A DNA stretch of 30,655 nucleotides from the NCBI GenBank assembly GCA_900128585.1, contig LT642215.1, positions 1,909 through 32,563 of the forward strand. Direction: 5' to 3'. This stretch comes from Stramenopiles sp. TOSAG23-3 (Eukaryota > Sar). Below are positions 4,498 through 25,550 of the stretch, piece by piece. The first letter of the stretch is position 1; each line of letters begins with the position of its first letter. The notes under the pieces were generated by a model, which was given only the letters and a program-made list of their open reading frames with translations, had not been told where the DNA came from and did no database searches. Position numbers and translations under genes: made by a program.

Positions 4498-6711
4498 TTA
4501 ACTCATTTGCATACCCATGGCTTTCAATTGGTCGATTTCTCTCTTCCTTTGGGCTTCTTGTTGCCTTTCCTGTTCGTTTTGGCGCTCGATTTGCCTTACG
4601 CGTTCGGCATCTTGTTCTTGGAACTTCTCTGCTTCTTCAACCATAGAATCAATTTCCTCTTGGGTCAAACGCCCACGGTCGTTGGTGATAGTTACGTCAG
4701 CGGTAGCACCGGTCACTTGATCCTTGGCCGTAACGTGTAGCAGACCATTGGCATCGATATCGAAGGTAACGTCGACTTGGGGAACGTTCCTCTTGGCGCG
4801 TTCGATACCAGAGATGGTAAACTTTCCGAGCATGTTGTTACCATCGGTGCATTGACGTTCACCTTCATATACACATACGTCAACTTCGGTTTGGTAGTCT
4901 TCCTCGGTGGTGTAGGTCTTCGTCTTGCGGACTGGGATAGGGGTGTTCCTCTTGATCAAGGTCGACATAACCCGGCCGGTGGTCTCGATACCCAAGGACA
5001 ACGGGGTAACGTCTACCAGCAAGAGGGAAGAAGTCGCAGCGTGGCGCTCGCCACTGAGGATGGCACCTTGAATGGCGGCACCATAGGCAACGGCCTCGTC
5101 CGGGTTGATGGTCTTGCACAAATCTTTGCCCTTGAAGAATTCTTGCAAAAGGGCTTGGATCTTCGGGATACGGGTGGACCCACCGACAAGAACAATATCA
5201 TCAATGTTTTCTTGCTTCATTTTGGCGTCCTTCAAAACGTGCTTGACGGTCTCCAAGCAGCGTTGGAAAAGTTCGTCGTTCAAACTGTCGAACTTGGCGC
5301 GGGTAACCGTCGTGGAAAAGTCGATGCCGTCGATAAGAGAATCTATTTCTATTGTCGCGGTGGTACTTGCGGACAATTGACGCTTCGCTTTCTCGCACGC
5401 CTGTCTCAAACGCTTCATGGCGCGGGCGTTCTCGGAGATTGGGGACGCCTTTCTGTTCTTGCGGGTGAAGTCGGACTGAACGTGGTTTTGCAATACGTTG
5501 TCGAAATCTTCCCCTCCCAAGTGGGTGTCACCGGCGGTGGCTTTGACCTCGAAGATACCTTTCTCGATGGCCAAGATGGAGACATCGAACGTACCTCCTC
5601 CAAGGTCGAAGACGAGGATGTTGCGGACCCCTTCATCGGCCTTCTTGTCGTTCAAGCCGTAGGCAAGGGCGGCGGCAGTGGGCTCGTTAATGATGCGCAT
5701 GACTTCAAGCCCGGCGATGGCACCGGCGTCCTTGGTGGCGGCGCGCTGGGAGTCGCTGAAGTAGGCGGGTACGGTAATTACAGCCTTCTTCACCTCGTGG
5801 CCCAAGAAGGTCTCGGCGATGCTCTTCATCTTGGTCAAGACCATGGCACTGACCTGCTCCGGGGCGTACAATTTCTGCTCGCCGTCGTGCTGAACGCTTA
5901 CCATTGGTTTTCCTTCCTTGGATCGCTCTACGGCGTACTGGAACATCTTGATGTCCTTGGCAACTTTCTCGTCGTCGAAACCGGACCCGATCAAACGCTT
6001 GACGTCGTAGACGGTGTTCTTTGGGTTCATGGACGCGTTGCGCTGGGCAGCGGCACCAACGAATCGCTCTCCATCGTCTGGGCTGAAGCCGATTACGGAG
6101 GCAGTGGTTCGGGAACCTTCCTCGTTGGCGATGATCTTAACGCCACCGTCTTTCCACACACCGACGCAGGAGTAGGTGGTACCCAAATCGATACCGATGA
6201 CCGTGCGGTCCTCCGGTGGGATCTCTTTGTTGGCCTCGGCGATTACCTGAAGCTCGTTCTTGGCTTTGGCAAGACCGTCGACAAGGGCTTGGTTGTCTGC
6301 CTCTACCTTCAAGCCGGCCTCGTAGGCGGAGACGGACTCTTCGAACAGTCGGCCTGCGAACTTGGCAGCGCCAAGGCGCAAGAAGCCTTTGGCCCATTCT
6401 GGCTTCATGGCGATGCACTTTTCGGCATCGAGGGCGGCCTTCTTGTGTTCCTTCAACTTCAGGTACGCGGCGGATCGGTTGGAGTAGTACACTTCGTTGG
6501 TGGGGTCCAGATCGATGGCGTCGGTGAAGCACGATACAGCTTCGCGGGTTTTGCCGGAGGCGAAGGCGGTGTTACCCATGTTCTTTGCTTCCACTGCCAT
6601 CTTCTTGCGTTCGTTCAAAGACATGTTTGCAAACTCTCCCGCCAAGGCGGGGTCGGAGGCAACTTTTTTCTTTCCTCCCTTCTTCTTTCTCTTGGTGCGT
6701 TTAGGCGGCAT
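4498..6711 (-). CDS. TPR-Hsp70 fusion chaperone, truncated lid, no EEVD
   Basis: The protein has 737 residues. The N-terminus is strongly basic (1-16). Three TPRs of the Hop/Sti1 TPR1 type lie at 37-142 and keep all five carboxylate-clamp residues (K43, N47, N78, K108, R112), which in the family grip the EEVD tail of Hsp70/Hsp90. A full Hsp70 ATPase domain begins near 169 with [14 protein letters not shown], and the second and third signatures ([29 protein letters not shown]) are intact. The beta substrate-binding domain follows to about residue 675. The helical lid is cut short, ending in a Glu/Gln/Arg helix and LKAMGMQMS rather than EEVD. With no signal peptide, it is probably cytosolic and docks on canonical Hsp70 or Hsp90. 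The Hsp70 assignment is certain; the docking role is inference. Confidence 0.95.
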
Positions 6712-12463: not shown

Positions 12464-13111
12464 AGCCTTTGTTTGTTTAACTTATTTTTTTTATTTTATG
12501 AGGTTGAACCTAATCCAAAACGAATGTTTTTTATTTATTACATACTTTGTAGAAAAAGCTTTTAATACTTTTATTTCAATATTATGTCCATTTTAAATAA
12601 GAGTGGTTGGTTTTAACTTGCTATATTATCTTTGAAGATTTATTGTAACAATATATTATTTTAAACTCAAATTTGATTAAAATAACGAATAATTTCGTTT
12701 CGAGGATAATTAGAATATATATCACTTATATTTTTATAAATTATTCTACATAATTACCCTAACGTTTAGGTATATATGGACTATTCGTATTAATAATATA
12801 AATTATGTATTTAACTGTTCTTATAAAAATTACTCTTTGTACAAAATAGCTATGATAAAGTGGTGTGAGATATTTTAAATATTGAACAAAAAAGAAGAAA
12901 TCAATCACCAGAAGAATTACAAATGAAACAAAGGGGTTTTATTCAAAGAATGATTATTTGCATGGGGTTGATCGATTGAAGTTGTTTGTTTGTTTGTTGT
13001 TTTCGGTGTCTGAAAAGTACGCCGTTGTTTTTATTGTGTTGTCAGGGATTGGTTGATATTACGAACATATTTACACGCACGCACAGAAAGAGAGGTCAAC
13101 CGGTTGTAAGC

Positions 13112-15358
13112 ATGTCGTCCAAACTGGTCGCCCAGAGCGAGGATAACTCTGCAAAGGAGAAGAAACCAGATGTGGACGTTAGAATATCTCGCACCGGAAC
13201 GATTAGTATCAAGGGAATAACGGGGTCGCTGGAGGGGGCAAAGCCGAACGCCAAAAAGAAACATTCCATCCGGTCTGCCGTCGCATCCCTTCGGGGACAA
13301 GCCTTGCGACAGTTACGGCAACAGCAAGGCATAGAGGAGAAGGCGCAAGGCAGCAAAAAGAAGGAGCTGCCTAACTTCAGCTTTGCTTCCCCAAATCGGC
13401 TCTCGCAGTACAGCGTGGGCCAGCCTGAGCCAAGCGATATGGAACGAATCGCAAGGCTGACCGCAAAAGCAACTCTGTCGACCCCACCCTCTCCTGCGCG
13501 AAAAGTGAGGTCTCCCATGTCTCCTTCCCGAACGGAGGGAGGGCAAAAGCTGCGGCACGCCGTCGACGTGCTACATGAAACTGTCCTGGACCAGCGCGCG
13601 AGGGCCGAATCTCGAGGCATTACTTTGTCGATGGCCCTGTATCGATTAGAACACAGGGTGCGTGGGGATGGGGTCGGTGCCCACGCCCTGACGAGGGTTC
13701 GTGAGGCACTACGAGAGATGGATCAACAGCGAGAAACGCTTTTGCAGCAGCTCGCCGATGAACGGCTGGCAGGTAAGAGCTACCGCACGAAAACGAGTGT
13801 GAAGAAGCTGATGGTTTCCTGGAGAAACACGCGCACACGAGACGCGTTCAACTTGTGGGAGAACCTAGTCGTTGTGCACAAAGCAAACCAAATGCAAAGT
13901 ATACTGAGCAAGAGCAGGGAATCGCTGATCACGAGGCTCAGGGACCAGTTGCAGGCACACACGTCGCACAGGGTCTTGGTCGCATGGAAATCCTACGTAA
14001 AAACCTCAATAAAAGAGCATGCGTGGGAAGAGAAAATAAGGGAGGACCATCAAAATCACACCGAAATGATAACGCGAAGGGCTATTTTGAGATTCAGGCA
14101 CGGCCAAATATCCCGATGCTTCAATTCATTTGCGACTAACGCCAAAAATGAGAAGGAACGCAGGGTCCGCGTCAAACGAACCCTGGCAAAATGGACCAAG
14201 CGCACCCTGTACAGGTGCTTTTCGGCTATGTCCGGTTATGCGGCTTCGAGAAAACGGAAACGGAATATCTGCCATAGAGTCATCGCAAAGGTTGAAAACC
14301 AAGCGGCGGCTGCTGCAATGGGAAAATGGCGCAGCTTCATCATGGAGGACGCAAAGATGCGAATGAGCAAAGAAAGGTTGATAATCAAACTCTTCAATGG
14401 TCTAACAAACAAGCATGAAATCCAACAAATATTCACGCTCGTGGTCGCGCAGGTAAAACAGCTGATGGAAGCGGAAAATGCCCTCCTCTTTTTGCACAAT
14501 CCCCGCAAAGAAAAGCTCTACACAAAGTTAATGTCCCTTGGCAGTGACGGTGAGGAAATGTTCGAAGAGTTTTTTATCCCGGACGACCTGGGGCTGACTG
14601 GGGAGTGCTTCCAAGAAGGGCAAAATTTCTGTGTCGCCGATGCTTACGAGGATTTGCGGTTTGACAGAAGCATAGACGATCGGTTGAATTCTCGCACAAA
14701 GCAATTGATGGTGCTTCCAGTTCGTACGAAAGCGGGACAGACTCTAGGGGTGCTACGGATTATCAATAAGAAGAATGGCATGGTGTTTAAAACGACCGAC
14801 GCAAACTTGTTGGGCCAATACTGTGACCAGCTAGCAGTTGCAATCCAAAAGGTAGAAAACATCGAGCGCGAAGAAAGGTGGAAAATTGAAAAGGTCCTGG
14901 GGTGGATTCGCAACGGCCTGTTGTCACGATCTTGGACGGCCTGGCGTAATGTATGGGAAGCCGCACGCCTTCGAAAGAAGCAATCAAAGAAATGCCTGCT
15001 CATATGGACCCGAAAATCAATATCAAAATCGTTCCGATCTTGGTCCAGTTTCGTGGAAAGAAGAAAGAAACAAAGAGATACGGTTTGGAGATCACTTCAT
15101 AGAATGGGGAAAACCCTGCTCAGCAGTGGGTTTAAAACGTGGCACTACAACGCAATGCGAATTAAAGCGTTGGCGGAGACAAACCTGCTGTACGACGAAC
15201 TGAAGCAACAGAAAGAGGCGTACACGGAACAGATCATACACCGTGCCTTGATGCGAATGCAACATGCAACGATCGCAAACTGCTTCTTCACTATGGCTGA
15301 GCACGCTCGAGAGGCAAAAGAACAAAAGGTTCGGGTTACGCGCACGTTGGCCCGATAG
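13112..15358 (+). CDS. Sfi1-like Trp-repeat and GAF protein, 5' part (broken)
   Basis: From the ATG at 13112 (MSSKLVAQSED) this part codes for 748 residues. The N-terminal 170 residues are basic and low in structure. Helical Trp units like centrin-binding Sfi1 repeats follow (LMVSWRNTRTRDAFNLWENL, VLVAWKSYV, AKWTKRTLYRCFSAM, AAAMGKWRSF). A GAF domain lies at about 430-590 (QQIFTLVVAQVKQLMEAENALLFLH...; VLPVRTKAGQTLGVLRIINK). More Trp units follow (SWTAWRNVW, SFRSWSSFVE, GFKTWHYNAM). The last stretch, ending KVRVTRTLAR, repeats the stretch before GAF1 (RVRVKRTLAKW), so a second module should continue. It stops instead at a TAG made where an inverted segment begins. A centrosome/basal-body or ciliary scaffold role is inferred from the repeats. 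Confidence 0.85.
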   Translation: MSSKLVAQSEDNSAKEKKPDVDVRISRTGTISIKGITGSLEGAKPNAKKKHSIRSAVASLRGQALRQLRQQQGIEEKAQGSKKKELPNFSFASPNRLSQYSVGQPEPSDMERIARLTAKATLSTPPSPARKVRSPMSPSRTEGGQKLRHAVDVLHETVLDQRARAESRGITLSMALYRLEHRVRGDGVGAHALTRVREALREMDQQRETLLQQLADERLAGKSYRTKTSVKKLMVSWRNTRTRDAFNLWENLVVVHKANQMQSILSKSRESLITRLRDQLQAHTSHRVLVAWKSYVKTSIKEHAWEEKIREDHQNHTEMITRRAILRFRHGQISRCFNSFATNAKNEKERRVRVKRTLAKWTKRTLYRCFSAMSGYAASRKRKRNICHRVIAKVENQAAAAAMGKWRSFIMEDAKMRMSKERLIIKLFNGLTNKHEIQQIFTLVVAQVKQLMEAENALLFLHNPRKEKLYTKLMSLGSDGEEMFEEFFIPDDLGLTGECFQEGQNFCVADAYEDLRFDRSIDDRLNSRTKQLMVLPVRTKAGQTLGVLRIINKKNGMVFKTTDANLLGQYCDQLAVAIQKVENIEREERWKIEKVLGWIRNGLLSRSWTAWRNVWEAARLRKKQSKKCLLIWTRKSISKSFRSWSSFVERRKKQRDTVWRSLHRMGKTLLSSGFKTWHYNAMRIKALAETNLLYDELKQQKEAYTEQIIHRALMRMQHATIANCFFTMAEHAREAKEQKVRVTRTLAR

Positions 15359-15519
15359 GATTTGTTGAATATCTTTCTTACCCGCAAGCCCATTCGACAG
15401 TTTTAAAATAAGTTTTTCTTTCTCGACTCTCATTTTGGATTCTTCCATCATAAAGGAGCGCCATTTCCCCAATGCTGCCGCCACGGCTTGGTGCTCAACT
15501 TTAGCGCATACCCTAACGC
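15356..15519 (-). pseudogene. Inverted fragment of the GAF/Sfi1 gene's second module
   Basis: Read on the minus strand this codes for CAKVEHQAVAAALGKWRSF, MMEESKMRVEKEKLILKLSN and GLAGKKDIQQIL. That is a diverged paralogue of the plus-strand stretch at about 14270-14430 (AKVENQAAAAAMGKWRSF ... IQQIF) which leads into GAF1. The surrounding gene is on the plus strand, so this piece is flipped. It ends at the 59-N gap. The flip is probably an assembly error caused by the repeated modules, but a real inversion breaking the gene cannot be ruled out. Confidence 0.8.
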
Positions 15520-15578
15520 NNNNNNNNNNNNNNNNNNNNNNNNNNNNNNNNNNNNNNNNNNNNNNNNNNNNNNNNNNN
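15520..15578. other. Assembly gap (59 N)
   Basis: Fifty-nine N bases inside the GAF/Sfi1 gene. The true missing length is probably larger: the second GAF domain expected after the inverted linker is absent on both sides of the gap. Confidence 0.95.
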
Positions 15579-16574
15579 TGTGGTCGAATATCTAGGTCAC
15601 AGTTGAGTGCCGGATTCCACACATGGGAGCGCTTCGCTCTGCATGCACAGCTTGAGCAAGCTAATCATAAAGATAAAATTACCCGAGCCGTAGGCGTCTG
15701 TGGGGGCCTTGCAAAAGTTCAAACGCTAACGGATGTCTTTGCGCTTGTAAATGAAAAAATTCCCTTGTTGCTGGAGACTGAACGGTGCACTTTATACGTG
15801 GCAGATCACGGACGTGAGTTGCTGTGGTCGGCAAACCTGCAGTCTGGAGAGGAAGGTGAAACGACCGTCCAAATACCATTCGCTCGGGGCCAAATGGGTC
15901 TGGTGGCCCAAACAGGCCAAAGCACGTATGGCCCAGGGAGGGATGGTGACAACCACCATTACGTGCCCATCAGAAATGTAAGGGATGATGTTCTGGGGGT
16001 CTTGGACGTGGCATGCGGTTCTTCCCAGAGCGCCGAGGCGAACGAAGAGATGCTGGAATTGGCATCGGCCGTTGCAGCTATGGTTGGCGCGGCAATTAAC
16101 CACCAGGGTCTCCTCGACGACATCACGATGATGAACGAGCAAATGCACAGTGCCACATTGACTGAACAGAAAATGGCGTCAATTATTACTTGGCTTTTTG
16201 AAGTTATTGGTAGCGGGGATGGGCAAGAGCACAAAGCAGAGATTCAAGAAATGCGGGATACGTTTATTAGGGCTCATTACGGAATAAACATGAGCAATTC
16301 GCCCCAAGGGGCTGGCAGTCTAAGGGTCGCGAAAGATAGTGGTGTTGCTGCTGAGTTCCGACTGGCTGATATGGACGAGCAATCCATTGAAGGCTCAGGA
16401 TACGCCCAAGGACAATCGTCTGAAAGGGCAGAAGATTCTGGCGCGCCAACGTGGACTGAAGCGTTTGCATCCATCGATACAAATAAAGATGGCAACATAT
16501 CACCAAGTGAGTTTGCAAGGTGGTACAATGATCGACAGGCAAACCGAAGAAGCGATGGCCCTGCGTATGTGTGA
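15579..16574 (+). CDS. GAF and EF-hand C-terminal part of the broken gene
   Basis: From the first base after the gap the plus-strand frame is open for 331 residues. It starts inside a Trp/helical linker (SAGFHTWERFALHAQ, then ITRAVGVCGGLAKVQTLTDV) equivalent to the one before GAF1. A GAF domain follows at about 15720-16110 (VNEKIPLLLETERCTLYVAD...; VPIRNVRDDVLGVLDVACG), then a helix. One canonical EF-hand loop, DTNKDGNISPSE, lies near the end (16474-16509). A single Ca2+ site beside centrin-binding-like repeats fits a calcium-responsive cytoskeletal protein. The open frame extending upstream across the N gap to 15435 is antisense to the inverted fragment and is not coding. Confidence 0.85.
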   Translation, partial: CGRISRSQLSAGFHTWERFALHAQLEQANHKDKITRAVGVCGGLAKVQTLTDVFALVNEKIPLLLETERCTLYVADHGRELLWSANLQSGEEGETTVQIPFARGQMGLVAQTGQSTYGPGRDGDNHHYVPIRNVRDDVLGVLDVACGSSQSAEANEEMLELASAVAAMVGAAINHQGLLDDITMMNEQMHSATLTEQKMASIITWLFEVIGSGDGQEHKAEIQEMRDTFIRAHYGINMSNSPQGAGSLRVAKDSGVAAEFRLADMDEQSIEGSGYAQGQSSERAEDSGAPTWTEAFASIDTNKDGNISPSEFARWYNDRQANRRSDGPAYV

Positions 16575-22778: not shown

Positions 22779-25550
22779 TTATCTTCTGACTACGAACCAG
22801 CCAAAACTACGGAGCATCATTTTGGAAAACGAATCTGGAACGATCGGGTCCAAGGCAGCCCAAGCGTCCTCGACAAGCTTGTTCGCTTGCACTACGCACT
22901 CTTGTACGGCTCCGACATCTTCCAATTCCTTGATGACTTGGTTGACGGTGGCTTGGTCCTGTGGCTTGCTTTCGATGGTTTTCCAAAGCTTTTGGCGCTG
23001 TTGCAAGCCCATGAGGCCCATTGCTTTCGCAACCGGCATAGTGACCTTTCCGCACATGATGTCTTCTCCTAACACTTTCATCGCCTTCTTCTTTTTCCCT
23101 TTTTGTTGCTCCTTAAGCTTCGCTTTTTGATCATCCCGGCCAAAAATTTCGGTAACAACGTTTGCGGTGGCATCCTCCTCGGCGGACTGGTCGATCTTTG
23201 CGTTGAAAAACAACCCACGCAAATTCAACACATCGTCCATGATTTGGAATGCAAGCCCGACGCCTTCAAAGTATTTTCCGACGGCCTCGACCTGCTCTGG
23301 CGTTCCGCCGCCAACTAATGCGCCCATACGGGCGAGGGTTCCCGCTGGAACGGCGGTCTTCAACATGTGGATGGCCAAGGAGCGTTCTTCGAGGACTGCA
23401 CTTTCTCCTTTCTCTATCGCTTCCGGCATCAAATAATCGAGGCCGTAAATGTCGAGCGCTTGGCCGGCGTGACCACCTCGCAAGCAAGAGAAGTAGAGCT
23501 GATAAACTTTATTTAAGGTGTCTGCGCTCAATCCTGGCGCTTTAATTAAGTGCTCGCACATGAAGTATGCGGCGGTACCGGCGTTGATGGAAAGTGGTTC
23601 CCCGTAAATGAGGTGGGCACATTTGCCGCCACGGCGTTCTTCGGACTTGTCTTGGATATCATCTACGATCAAAGACCCAACGTGCATGAACTCAGGCATC
23701 GCAAGCCATTTCACGAACTGGCGCGAATCCCCGCCGACGACGTCGCAGCAGGCAAGAGCACCGTAACTGCGCCAGGACTTTCCGCCCCTATCGGCAATTT
23801 CGCGTACTGGGGCGATCAACGTCTTTTGCAGAACGTCCATCGGGACGCCTTTCAGGTAGTAGTCGGTGTCTTTCGTCGCAATCAAATCACGGGCTTGCTC
23901 GCGGGTGGGCATGTCTGGGTACATGTCTTGTACGCTTTGTCGTACTTGCTTTCCAACGTTCTTGAAAAATGCGCCTAAGTCTGGCATCTTGTCGAAACCG
24001 TTGCGCTCCACGTACGCAATCCCAGTGACCTTTTCGCCACGAAAAGTTCCTGTCACAGTGCACCGTCCCTCCCAGTACGATGGCTTTGCGATCAGAGTAA
24101 CAAACTCTTGGTCTGGAAAATCCGCGACGAGCATCAAGTCGGTCTTGTCGCTGGGGATCTTCAAGTTCCACGCAGTCGGGAACGAGCGGAAGGTTTTTAC
24201 GGACGTCCAAACGTCGGAGCCTAGCAGCTGCATGTCGGTGCTCTTGTAGCGTCGCCCTTTCGGGTCGATGGTCACCGTTCGCGTTTCCATCAACTCGCCG
24301 TTCTCTGGGTTGACAAGGATGGCAGCAGTGATCTCGTACTTGTTGTCCAGCTGAACGGCCGCCCAGTTCCAGGCGTAGTTCATTCGGTCCGCCCCTTCCT
24401 CTGGCATCTTTCCGCCAAACTCGTGGTCGTACCAGCCCTGGCCTTTCGTGATGGTTTGCGTTTCCCCGTTCAATTTTACGGTCCCAGTAACTTCGCACCG
24501 TGGGATAAAGTAGTAGAACATATCGTCGCCGTCGTGGCCGGCAACAACACCATCTTTCCCGTGGCGAACCGCTGGTTTCTGGGGAAGGAACGCCAGAGAG
24601 AACCCACTCTCTTCGCCATCGCTGTGAAGGGCGTTGACAATGTACGCGCCGTCGCTGCGCTTGGTGACGGTGGCATTCTCGTAGTCTAGGTTCAGCTTGC
24701 CGAAGGGGACGTTGGCGTCTTTCTTGAACATGCGGTCTGGGAGGGGCACGTTGCCCTTCTCCAAAACTTCGCGCATCGCTGCGCGTAGTTTCTTGTCCCC
24801 GACTTGCTTCTTGCCTTCCTTGATCTGTTTCAAAACCATTTGTGGGGAGTCCCGGTCAAGAAGAATGTCCGAGGTGTATGTCTTGTTCTTGGTGTCGGAG
24901 ATGGCCCAGTTCAGGGCGTGCGCGTACGACTTCTTGCCAGTCTTCGGGTCGACATGCTTGCAGATTCGGAAAAATGCGGCAAAAATACTCAAATCAACGC
25001 CCGTGTCGGTCGTCACGTGACTGTTGTAGTACCACCACTCGGTCACACTGCTCTTGTGAGGGCCGTCGTGTTCGCCCAGGTTGATCGGACCAATGGAGCT
25101 TGGCCAGTCCGCACGGAGCGCCGGCGTAAGCAGGTTGCGAAGGGGGAACAGCCGTTGGCCATTGGGGCTTCGCAAAACGTCGCACAGGTACGTCTCCAAA
25201 TCTTTGGTTCGCTTTTCGATGAACTTGGCGTCCAAGTTTCCGATCCATTTCTTCTGTGGCAAAGACGGGCGGCTGGCGATAAGGTTATCGCGCTTGATCT
25301 CGGCGTGGAGGGCCTCGAACTCCTTGTAACGCCTCCAGACGTTCCAGGTGTTGCCGTCACTCAGTTCGGTAACAACGTTGTACGTCGTGTACGAACCGCC
25401 TTCGTCGTTGGTGATTTTGCTGCCCAAAACTTTAATCGTGTTGATTTGAACTGCAAGTTCATCGTCGTAGATCGACGGCGAACGAGAGGAACGAACAGAC
25501 TCTTCGTCAGAAGACTCTTGGTTGTTCGAGCGACTTGGTACGGCTTGCAT
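22779..25550 (-). CDS. PX / CrtC-lipocalin-like / polyprenyl synthase triple fusion
   Basis: One open frame of 923 residues. A PX domain (about 31-147) keeps the phosphoinositide-binding features RRYKEF (73-78), the LPQKKW loop and FIEKRTKDLETYL. A CrtC/AttH lipocalin-like domain (about 165-515) has TEWWYYNSHV (170-179), GQGWYDHEFGG (370-380) and NWAAVQLDNKYEIT (395-408), matching carotenoid 1,2-hydratase relatives. A polyprenyl synthase domain (about 580-900) has the first Asp-rich motif D630-D-I-Q-D634 followed by RRGGKCAHLIYG, and the second D772-D-V-L-N776, as in eukaryotic GGPP-type synthases. Small residues (S626, G625) before the first motif favour a C20 or longer product. No frameshift or intron separates the parts. 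PX suggests PI3P-rich endomembranes. Channelling of the prenyl product to the CrtC-like domain is inference. ATG start, TAA stop. Confidence 0.92.
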   Translation of the reverse strand: MQAVPSRSNNQESSDEESVRSSRSPSIYDDELAVQINTIKVLGSKITNDEGGSYTTYNVVTELSDGNTWNVWRRYKEFEALHAEIKRDNLIASRPSLPQKKWIGNLDAKFIEKRTKDLETYLCDVLRSPNGQRLFPLRNLLTPALRADWPSSIGPINLGEHDGPHKSSVTEWWYYNSHVTTDTGVDLSIFAAFFRICKHVDPKTGKKSYAHALNWAISDTKNKTYTSDILLDRDSPQMVLKQIKEGKKQVGDKKLRAAMREVLEKGNVPLPDRMFKKDANVPFGKLNLDYENATVTKRSDGAYIVNALHSDGEESGFSLAFLPQKPAVRHGKDGVVAGHDGDDMFYYFIPRCEVTGTVKLNGETQTITKGQGWYDHEFGGKMPEEGADRMNYAWNWAAVQLDNKYEITAAILVNPENGELMETRTVTIDPKGRRYKSTDMQLLGSDVWTSVKTFRSFPTAWNLKIPSDKTDLMLVADFPDQEFVTLIAKPSYWEGRCTVTGTFRGEKVTGIAYVERNGFDKMPDLGAFFKNVGKQVRQSVQDMYPDMPTREQARDLIATKDTDYYLKGVPMDVLQKTLIAPVREIADRGGKSWRSYGALACCDVVGGDSRQFVKWLAMPEFMHVGSLIVDDIQDKSEERRGGKCAHLIYGEPLSINAGTAAYFMCEHLIKAPGLSADTLNKVYQLYFSCLRGGHAGQALDIYGLDYLMPEAIEKGESAVLEERSLAIHMLKTAVPAGTLARMGALVGGGTPEQVEAVGKYFEGVGLAFQIMDDVLNLRGLFFNAKIDQSAEEDATANVVTEIFGRDDQKAKLKEQQKGKKKKAMKVLGEDIMCGKVTMPVAKAMGLMGLQQRQKLWKTIESKPQDQATVNQVIKELEDVGAVQECVVQANKLVEDAWAALDPIVPDSFSKMMLRSFGWFVVRR

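Follow-up and report, generated by a model that had tools for sequence, protein, structure and literature searches.

Carotenoid 1,2-hydratase (CrtC) hydrates carotenoid ends, and alanine mutants of its residues H239, W241, Y266 and D268 were reported in 2015 to inactivate the enzyme (PMC4717167, accessible part). A role in lipid metabolism has been proposed for NE1406, the AttH protein, a member of the AttH / kievitone-hydratase double-lipocalin superfamily (PMC2954199, accessible part). PX domains that bind PtdIns3P in the canonical way carry an Arg-Tyr pair, the Lys of the PPK loop and an Arg of helix alpha-2 (PMC6449406, accessible part). The locus described here unites relatives of these proteins with a prenyl diphosphate synthase in one polypeptide. 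The sequence-only reading that drew attention to it knew of no described enzyme with this order of domains, in line with our literature search, which found no publication describing the fusion or its prokaryotic CrtC-synthase core.

The window, i.e. the whole analysed stretch of 30,655 nucleotides, contains a complete fusion gene on the minus strand (22779..25550), which encodes 923 amino acids comprising a PX domain, a double lipocalin (CrtC/Lipocalin_9) and a trans-prenyl diphosphate synthase. Its reading frame is indeed uninterrupted, as first described, with an ATG start, 923 codons and no internal stop; in-frame stops lie close upstream of the ATG, and a simple model of base composition puts the odds of so long a frame arising by chance at about 4e-18. 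Three domains had been proposed, and their order PX-CrtC-synthase stands, but the domain search suggested at that stage gave four, all above the curated Pfam cut-offs: PX (residues 64-130, E 1.3e-16), CrtC N-terminal lipocalin (170-379, E 2.5e-18), Lipocalin_9 (392-518, E 1.5e-18) and polyprenyl_synt (576-800 and one further stretch, E 1.6e-42). The CrtC and Lipocalin_9 matches together form one double-lipocalin unit of AttH fold (model residues 146-523). Every motif quoted earlier was located in the translation: RRYKEF (73-78), TEWWYYN (170-176), GWYDHEFGG (372-380), DDIQD (630-634) and DDVLN (772-776). The AlphaFold2 model of the protein is compact (pLDDT 90, pTM 0.85).

In the lipocalin unit, the CrtC N-terminal domain (24414..25043, minus strand) opens with TEWWYYN and is followed by Lipocalin_9 (23997..24377, minus strand). 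The presence of both domains and of a double barrel places the unit in the superfamily of AttH and kievitone hydratase, which are also its nearest solved structures, the latter being the nearest functionally characterised fold. Conservation of the putative active site is complete: W373, D375, E377, W394, W396, D480, Q481 and E482 are each found in 93/93 rows of alignment A3 (the fusion protein plus 92 homologues out of the 119 others listed). D375, the proposed proton donor, lies in WYDHEFGG (373-380; 24411..24434, minus strand), and W394-N-W396 (24363..24371, minus strand) is the proposed cation-stabilising pair, aligned with Trp283/Trp285 of CrtC. This comparison with CrtC rests on a weak alignment, with hhalign probabilities of only 1.9% and 1.5%, in which D268 of the carotenoid hydratase is kept as D375 and the WWY motif aligns with TEWWY (the exact counterpart of Trp110 not being fixed), whereas H239, W241 and Y266 become D343, F345 and W373, so that three of the four essential residues differ. 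Moreover, the Pfam CrtC model gave no match at E 0.01 to an authentic carotenoid 1,2-hydratase (one protein scanned, L129). We therefore rejected filing the protein as a carotenoid hydratase, and the link to carotenoid hydration made in the sequence-only reading reduces to a Pfam label. The carotenoid-type CrtC used for comparison was drawn from a plasmid record carrying Roseobacter litoralis crtC; a caveat to the missing Pfam match is that the annotated start of L129 looks short, an AWWY motif preceding that point in related genes. A PF07143 search of genomes yielded mostly long full-length matches, which we read as AttH-type. The Foldseek list for the model also includes 25-phosphosteroid lyase chains, to which we give no weight.

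The C-terminal part (residues ~524-923; 22782..23981, minus strand) has the trans-prenyl diphosphate synthase fold, according to Pfam and structure matches, and is all-helical in the model. The hallmarks of PF00348 synthases are present, namely DDxxD (DDIQD, 23649..23663, minus strand), DDxx(D/N) (DDVLN, 23223..23237, minus strand), GGK..R and RRG, with K591, R594, R639 and R640 conserved in 93/93 rows. Chains of C20 or longer go with small residues at positions 4 and 5 before the first motif and with no insertion inside that motif; G625 and S626, which precede DDIQD in 93/93 rows of A3, are such small residues, as in C20-type enzymes, and DDIQD carries no insertion, so that the expected product would be a prenyl diphosphate with a chain of roughly C20 or more. 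A Lys-rich insertion (784-822; 23085..23201, minus strand), seen in alignment A1 and in the model, where it is of low confidence in part, is shared with the homologues P0002 and P0003 and is shorter or missing in the other 15 rows of A1. PF00348 occurs in only two genes of the source genome, the fusion and a second synthase that reads as a long-chain type. That the fusion might be the cell's only FPP/GGPP synthase is nevertheless weakly founded, since no cis-prenyltransferase was detected in this incomplete genome either, and such absences mean little.

The family to which this protein belongs is large. A single search, with 7999 candidates scored, returned at least 964 homologues above threshold, and the PX-CrtC-Lipocalin_9-synthase order was found in 30 of the 120 homologues among the matches listed (fusion protein included). 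The architecture is therefore not unique, and a claim of uniqueness was rejected; the CrtC-synthase core without PX is, in addition, widespread in prokaryotes. Of 193 Myxococcota genomes sampled, 12 have the full fusion, and one source gives the core the name 'geranylgeranyl pyrophosphate synthase/predicted secreted hydrolase'. Besides bacteria and protists, the family also occurs in archaeal bins; no relative turned up in the viral contigs searched. In the cyanobacterium Tolypothrix the enzyme is fused to a glycosyltransferase and a sulfotransferase, which suggests later steps of the pathway. A larger tree was built on 145 rows (the 120 proteins plus 25 of the 29 loci that matched; L021, L027, L029 and L030, which are fragments, were omitted), and 56 of these entered a careful tree, in which the protist rows form one clade with a support of 100/100. 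The eukaryotic status of metagenome rows in this clade was assigned from their place in the tree and their N-terminal extension, while P0026, P0028, P0040, P0060 and P0063 have names or a EukProt/MMETSP origin. Alignment A4 covered 16 prokaryotic loci, L022 being left out owing to stops in translation at its given coordinates.

The PX domain (25128..25445, minus strand) spans model residues 36-141, with the PX order of three strands followed by helices, and scores 61.3 bits against a Pfam cut-off of 21.6. It keeps all four residues of the canonical PtdIns3P site: the R74-Y75 pair in RRYKEF (25317..25334, minus strand), K100 in the PPK loop PxxPxK (residues 95-100; 25251..25268, minus strand) and R114 (25209..25211, minus strand), which we assign to the Arg position of helix alpha-2. 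It is a fair guess from these residues that the domain would bind PtdIns3P and that the enzyme would sit on an endosome-type PI3P membrane. The earlier proposal of a membrane-recruited enzyme that makes and processes a prenyl chain is thus plausible as regards endosomes. Its other location, a plastid-surrounding membrane, has nothing seen in its favour, and the named relatives among the matches listed, Hondaea, Mucochytrium and Cafeteria, are heterotrophs. PI3P binding is probably not constant across the family, as the key residues are complete in 13 of 30 PX members under a strict rule (17 of 30 under a looser one) and the Cafeteria clade has a divergent PX lacking both the Arg-Tyr pair and a hydrophobic helix. 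When 22 junction columns were removed, the PX match kept a probability of 91-99% in the Cafeteria clade, P0061/65, P0020/26/31/50 and P0030/37/41/62, dropped to 20% in P0055/56/66/72 and to 5% in five labyrinthulid-type rows, and vanished in P0014; shuffled columns gave at most 2.6, vs 17.4 for the labyrinthulid-type rows. The N-terminus of the Hondaea model consists of two strands (the first PX strand not being formed), a helix, two short, two long and two further helices, with a pair of hydrophobic helices at the place of the PX loop. We read this block, which is modelled at moderate confidence (block pLDDT 53 to 93), as a PX order with an insertion; a search with the Hondaea N-terminus alone matched only itself. 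The PX domain was added in the protist clade and degraded later in some lineages.

From a mechanistic point of view, the protein may be a prenyl-lipid enzyme with two functions, prokaryotic in type and tied to the membrane in protists. The C-terminal domain would condense IPP with an allylic starter, yielding a prenyl diphosphate whose chain has some C20 or more, and the double-lipocalin cavity would take up the hydrophobic tail of this diphosphate or of the derived alcohol. D375 may then protonate the terminal isoprene double bond, the tertiary cation being stabilised by W394 and W396, with probable help from a Trp in TEWWY, and water would quench the cation (an internal double bond being less likely), to give an omega-hydroxylated prenyl lipid, a tertiary alcohol, as the likely product. 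Some prokaryotes would glycosylate and export this product; in the protist, PX would dock the enzyme on a PI3P-bearing membrane, where the product would enter or leave the bilayer. We give a probability of about one half to this reading, in which the lipocalin unit protonates, and probably hydrates, the far double bond of a chain of about C20 made by the synthase at a PI3P membrane. It is favoured by the invariance of D375, W394 and W396, by kievitone hydratase being the nearest characterised fold and by the Tolypothrix fusion; it is weakened by the differences at three of the four essential CrtC residues, by the weak CrtC alignment and by the lack of a conserved operon partner. AttH, too, carries the WxD/WxW pattern, which by itself is hence no proof of hydration.

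Such a partner was sought in bacteria by clustering genes around 29 loci and by profiles at 32 loci, and none was found. Clustering gave two neighbour families with 5 loci each, and none more frequent: a membrane protein without Pfam match and what looks like a protein kinase. Compared with 39 controls, taken for their longer flanks from 47 loci matching the synthase part only (L037-L083) and differing in taxonomy from the fusion loci, a membrane-protein profile was found near 6/32 fusion loci vs 0/39 (three of the six being search seeds), a glycosyltransferase near or fused at 3/32 vs 0/39 (all three seeds) and a LolA-like protein at 2/32 vs 0/39 (both seeds), while ABC genes showed no enrichment (5/32, four of them seeds, vs 7/39). 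These neighbours are leads only.

A second reading, which we consider rather unlikely, makes the lipocalin unit a proton-initiated cyclase or isomerase, in which D375 would protonate the chain end and another double bond or proton loss would quench the cation, giving a cyclic or rearranged terpenoid and no alcohol. Fused prenyltransferase-cyclase logic is known from fungal chimeric diterpene synthases, and a Trp-rich site fits cation chemistry. The CrtC superfamily, too, includes the epoxide-rearranging fungal enzymes PenF and AsqC (PMC6013536, accessible part). However, the closest fold with a characterised function belongs to a hydratase, and the Pfam matches of the protein include no known terpene cyclase domain. 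The unit could also be a non-catalytic carrier that receives the prenyl chain from the synthase and passes it to the membrane, the whole protein being a GGPP synthase that contains its own shuttle. Lipocalins indeed bind hydrophobic molecules, the proposed role of NE1406 (AttH) in lipid metabolism would agree (PMC2954199, accessible part), and PX or hydrophobic helices place the unit at a membrane; yet eight residues invariant in 93/93 rows seem more than a generic carrier would need, and we regard this reading as unlikely.

A carotenoid-pathway enzyme, fusing CrtE (GGPP synthase) with CrtC, appears improbable. The adjoining crtC, crtD and polyprenyl synthetase genes of Roseobacter litoralis are in line with it, as are the hydration of carotenoid ends by CrtC (PMC4717167, accessible part) and the squalene/phytoene synthase (PF00494) of 18 of 25 prokaryotic host genomes, a majority that leaves some probability for a link to carotenoids or squalene. 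None was detected, however, in the other 7, which are drafts where genes may be missing, the only PF00494 match of the incomplete source genome is a NUDIX-squalene synthase type fusion, and three of the four catalytic residues of 2015 differ in the weak alignment. A PF00432 search gave no match even in control genomes and is hence uninformative. Chance or misassembly was rejected: although the source genome is a draft of 660 contigs, an artefactual join is hardly credible given the intact frame, the compact model, P0002 and P0003 with the same Pfam architecture at 79% and 75% identity, and 30/120 listed homologues sharing it, 29 of them in clusters other than the fusion protein's own.

More broadly, and with the odds somewhat against the proposal as a whole, the family may make an undescribed class of prenyl lipids, one polypeptide making the prenyl diphosphate and hydrating its far end, with sulfation or glycosylation and export in some bacteria. 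Heterotrophic protists would have acquired the enzyme once from prokaryotes and captured PX for PI3P membranes, some later turning to a transmembrane hairpin anchor. If so, a large unstudied enzyme family makes these lipids in bacteria, archaeal bins and protists, and a transferred bacterial metabolic enzyme gained a eukaryotic membrane address through two successive solutions, a PX domain and then a hydrophobic hairpin in the PX loop. To our knowledge, nobody has looked for such lipids.

Known systems resemble the fusion protein in part. GGPP synthases (1wy0, 3qqv and others) share the fold and catalytic motifs of its synthase domain but are unfused. Kievitone hydratase (7a0q, 7a0t) and AttH (2ich), at 18-22% identity, stand alone, with neither synthase nor PX; AttH shares the WxD and WxW pattern, its own function being unknown. 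Carotenoid 1,2-hydratase has in common, in the weak alignment, the acid Asp and the WxW pair, but not H239, W241 and Y266. The PX domains of nischarin (the nearest solved one by sequence, E 1.8e-9), SNX16 and SGK3 are similar in sequence (E 1.8e-9 to 1.2e-5), and we know of no fusion of these to an isoprenoid enzyme. The prokaryotic 'polyprenyl synthetase family protein' of ~740 aa lacks PX, with mostly 0 to some 50 residues ahead of the core, and has the same CrtC-Lipocalin_9-synthase order, with ~50% identity over ~84% of the fusion protein.

The PX-CrtC-Lipocalin_9-synthase gene lies at 22779-25550 on the minus strand as a single frame of 923 codons, from ATG to stop, and PX, CrtC, Lipocalin_9 and polyprenyl_synt all exceeded their curated cut-offs in a Pfam scan of its product; the sequence-only reading, which had noticed one uninterrupted frame with a PX domain, a CrtC-lipocalin fold and a prenyl synthase, is thus fully confirmed. 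Of 7999 candidates scored in a search of 5.8 billion proteins, 964 were homologues with E no higher than 1e-3. The domain and architecture searches which that reading had proposed indeed found the same four Pfam domains in 30 of the 120 homologues listed, the window protein counted, and the closest same-architecture relatives among these 120 were 79% and 75% identical to it. The AlphaFold2 model (93 aligned sequences) reached a mean pLDDT of 90.3 and a pTM of 0.85, with segments below 50 confined to residues 1-24 and 784-794, so that the units are predicted to pack into one body. An artefactual gene join was ruled out by the recurrent architecture and the compact model. This is a real, conserved, three-unit protein.

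The window is a portion of contig C475, in a 12.9 Mb draft genome of 660 contigs with eukaryotic gene content. HMG-CoA reductase is present, together with one further prenyl synthase and an 816-aa fusion of NUDIX and squalene/phytoene synthase (L084:349-2799), read as an IPP isomerase-squalene synthase. No cis-prenyltransferase was detectable in this draft, so the genome is probably incomplete and absences were not used as evidence. Elsewhere in the window, a single 737-aa frame (4498-6711, minus strand) encodes an HSP70 with an N-terminal TPR stretch, and two adjacent ORFs (12986-16574, plus strand) both contain a GAF domain, joined in the second by an EF hand; they may be a single interrupted gene or a pair of exons.

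Sequence comparison indicates that the core, i.e., CrtC, Lipocalin_9 and synthase without PX, is prokaryotic in type and belongs to a prokaryotic family, on which no paper was found in the literature. Among the 120 matches listed, PX-less rows of about 740 aa shared about 50% identity with the window protein across about 84% of its length. At least 29 family loci (L004-L032), a lower bound, were found in 84,980 genomes scanned at one per species; 25 of them span nearly the entire query, and L021, L027, L029 and L030 are partial. Hosts among the matches listed include Myxococcales, other Proteobacteria-labelled bins, Bacteroidetes (including one Spirosoma), a cyanobacterium (Cyanosarcina), a Caldiserica bin and a Thermoplasmata bin, with far more divergent members in Methanoculleus bins. 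The full fusion was present in 12 of 193 sampled Myxococcota genomes (11 whole, 1 split across two contigs), and most of the query in 3 of 72,556 plasmid records, two from Tolypothrix and one from Streptomyces canus. Several individual loci may be mentioned. The gene upstream of the very divergent Methanoculleus fusions (L030, L031) encodes a PEP-utiliser domain, accompanied in L031 by PPDK_N. Neither the WxW pair nor the TEWWY motif is present in a Polyangium copy (L026), whose lipocalin site is perhaps changed or dead. A Nitrosomonas stercoris plasmid typed as conjugative carries a 649-aa synthase (L132:7362-9311) adjoining ferredoxin-NADP reductase, with no Pfam match at 1e-5 in its N-terminal half.

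The trees indicate that the protist rows, with Hondaea, Mucochytrium and Cafeteria as named members, form one clade, that PX was gained there and that the PX-fused form belongs to it. A tree of 145 rows placed every one of the 30 PX rows inside one 71-row clade (SH-aLRT 100), and a careful tree of 56 rows, built under a mixture model, separated 28 eukaryote-type from 28 prokaryote-type rows by a 100/100 branch. In bacterial members, the core is mostly preceded by 0 to about 50 residues; of the rows in the 71-row clade, 30 have PX, 23 others have 110 residues or more in this position, and the remaining 18, which are shorter, are probably cut sequences. Both branches of the first protist split (support 95/90 and 89/57 in the 56-row tree) include rows with an intact PX, so the common ancestor of the clade probably already had it. 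Judging from its wider prokaryotic spread, the core would have passed from prokaryote to protist.

Canonical PtdIns3P binding needs four residues, namely a sequential Arg-Tyr, the PxxPxK Lys and an Arg of helix alpha-2, as described in PMC6449406, and the window PX has all four (R74, Y75, K100, R114). They are complete in 13 of the 30 PX members under a strict rule and in 17 under a looser one that accepts Phe in place of Tyr and, at position 100 or 101, either Lys or Arg, so this property has been lost in part. With the junction (22 alignment columns) left out, several lineages with no Pfam PX match still fit the PX profile at 91-99% probability, and labyrinthulid-type rows matched it weakly, at 5%. 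Hydropathy gave two strongly hydrophobic segments in four of five labyrinthulid-type rows and one in the fifth. In the predicted model of the Hondaea protein (P0060), residues 36-158 form, in order, two strands and a helix, then an insertion that contains a pair of long, hydrophobic helices, and then a further two helices. This order of elements is PX-like, as if a hairpin occupied the position of the PPK loop of other PX domains. We infer that the labyrinthulid-type N-terminus is a PX domain converted into a membrane hairpin.

No conserved operon around the fusion loci was found by neighbour clustering and profiles. The informative example is Tolypothrix PCC 7601, in which one 1509-aa plasmid-encoded frame (L130:7646-12172) joins a sulfotransferase, a GT28/EryCIII-type glycosyltransferase, CrtC, Lipocalin_9 and synthase, near genes for a DevC-type exporter (DevC permease, ABC ATPase, membrane fusion protein). 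A related glycosyltransferase gene is separated from the upstream core by no more than a few bases in L009 and by 0.9 kb in L017, and LolA-like, ABC and methyltransferase genes adjoin the core in L008 and L028. These neighbours, few in number and with glycosyltransferase, LolA-like and ABC profiles seeded from the same genes, fit a hydroxylated lipid that would then be decorated and exported. ABC genes were equally common near fusions and near control synthases. A gene for a membrane protein was a neighbour of the fusion in 6 of 32 loci (L006:10787-12556; L007, L009, L010, L022, L023) against 0 of 39 controls, three of the six being seeds; the three copies scanned (L006, L009, L010) had no Pfam match. 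As for a role of the core in carotenoid metabolism, squalene/phytoene synthase was seen in 18 of 25 host genomes and none was seen in the other 7, so such a role is possible though not required.

Our main reading, to which we give roughly an even chance, is that the synthase would build a prenyl chain, the end of which would then be protonated, and probably hydrated, at a membrane. For comparison, an authentic carotenoid 1,2-hydratase was taken from the Roseobacter litoralis photosynthesis cluster (crtC, L129:10801-11673), and seven crtC-type plasmid genes (five annotated as carotenoid 1,2-hydratase, one as hydroxyneurosporene dehydrogenase, one unannotated) were aligned. H118xW120, Y145xD147 and W162xW164 were invariant in all seven, and adding 121 to these positions gives exactly the published Rubrivivax numbers. 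A long but weakly scoring profile alignment (probability 1.5%) places D343/F345, W373/D375 and W394/W396 of the window protein there, so that by this alignment the acid and cation-stabilising Trp pair described for CrtC (PMC12402844) are kept, whereas His239, Trp241 and Tyr266 of carotenoid hydratase (PMC4717167) are replaced. The kept residues, and a review in which a strongly acidic Asp is presented as the feature that these hydratases probably share with epoxide-rearranging relatives (PMC6013536), support a proton-initiated chemistry on a prenyl end, with hydration most likely.

Filing the protein as a carotenoid hydratase is unsupported, given these three replacements and the failure of the Pfam CrtC model to match the L129 product at E 0.01, this being the sole authentic protein scanned, with an annotated start that looks short. 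The same Pfam model matches one protein, read as AttH-type, at 4.9e-59, and its highest scores go to proteins with this reading, whose genes in L094 and L095 adjoin permease-like ORFs. In the predicted structure, the best structural matches of the lipocalin unit include AttH and kievitone hydratase, an enzyme reported to hydrate a prenyl double bond (PMC5805349). By sequence, the PX domains of nischarin, SNX16 and SGK3 are among the best solved matches to the window PX.
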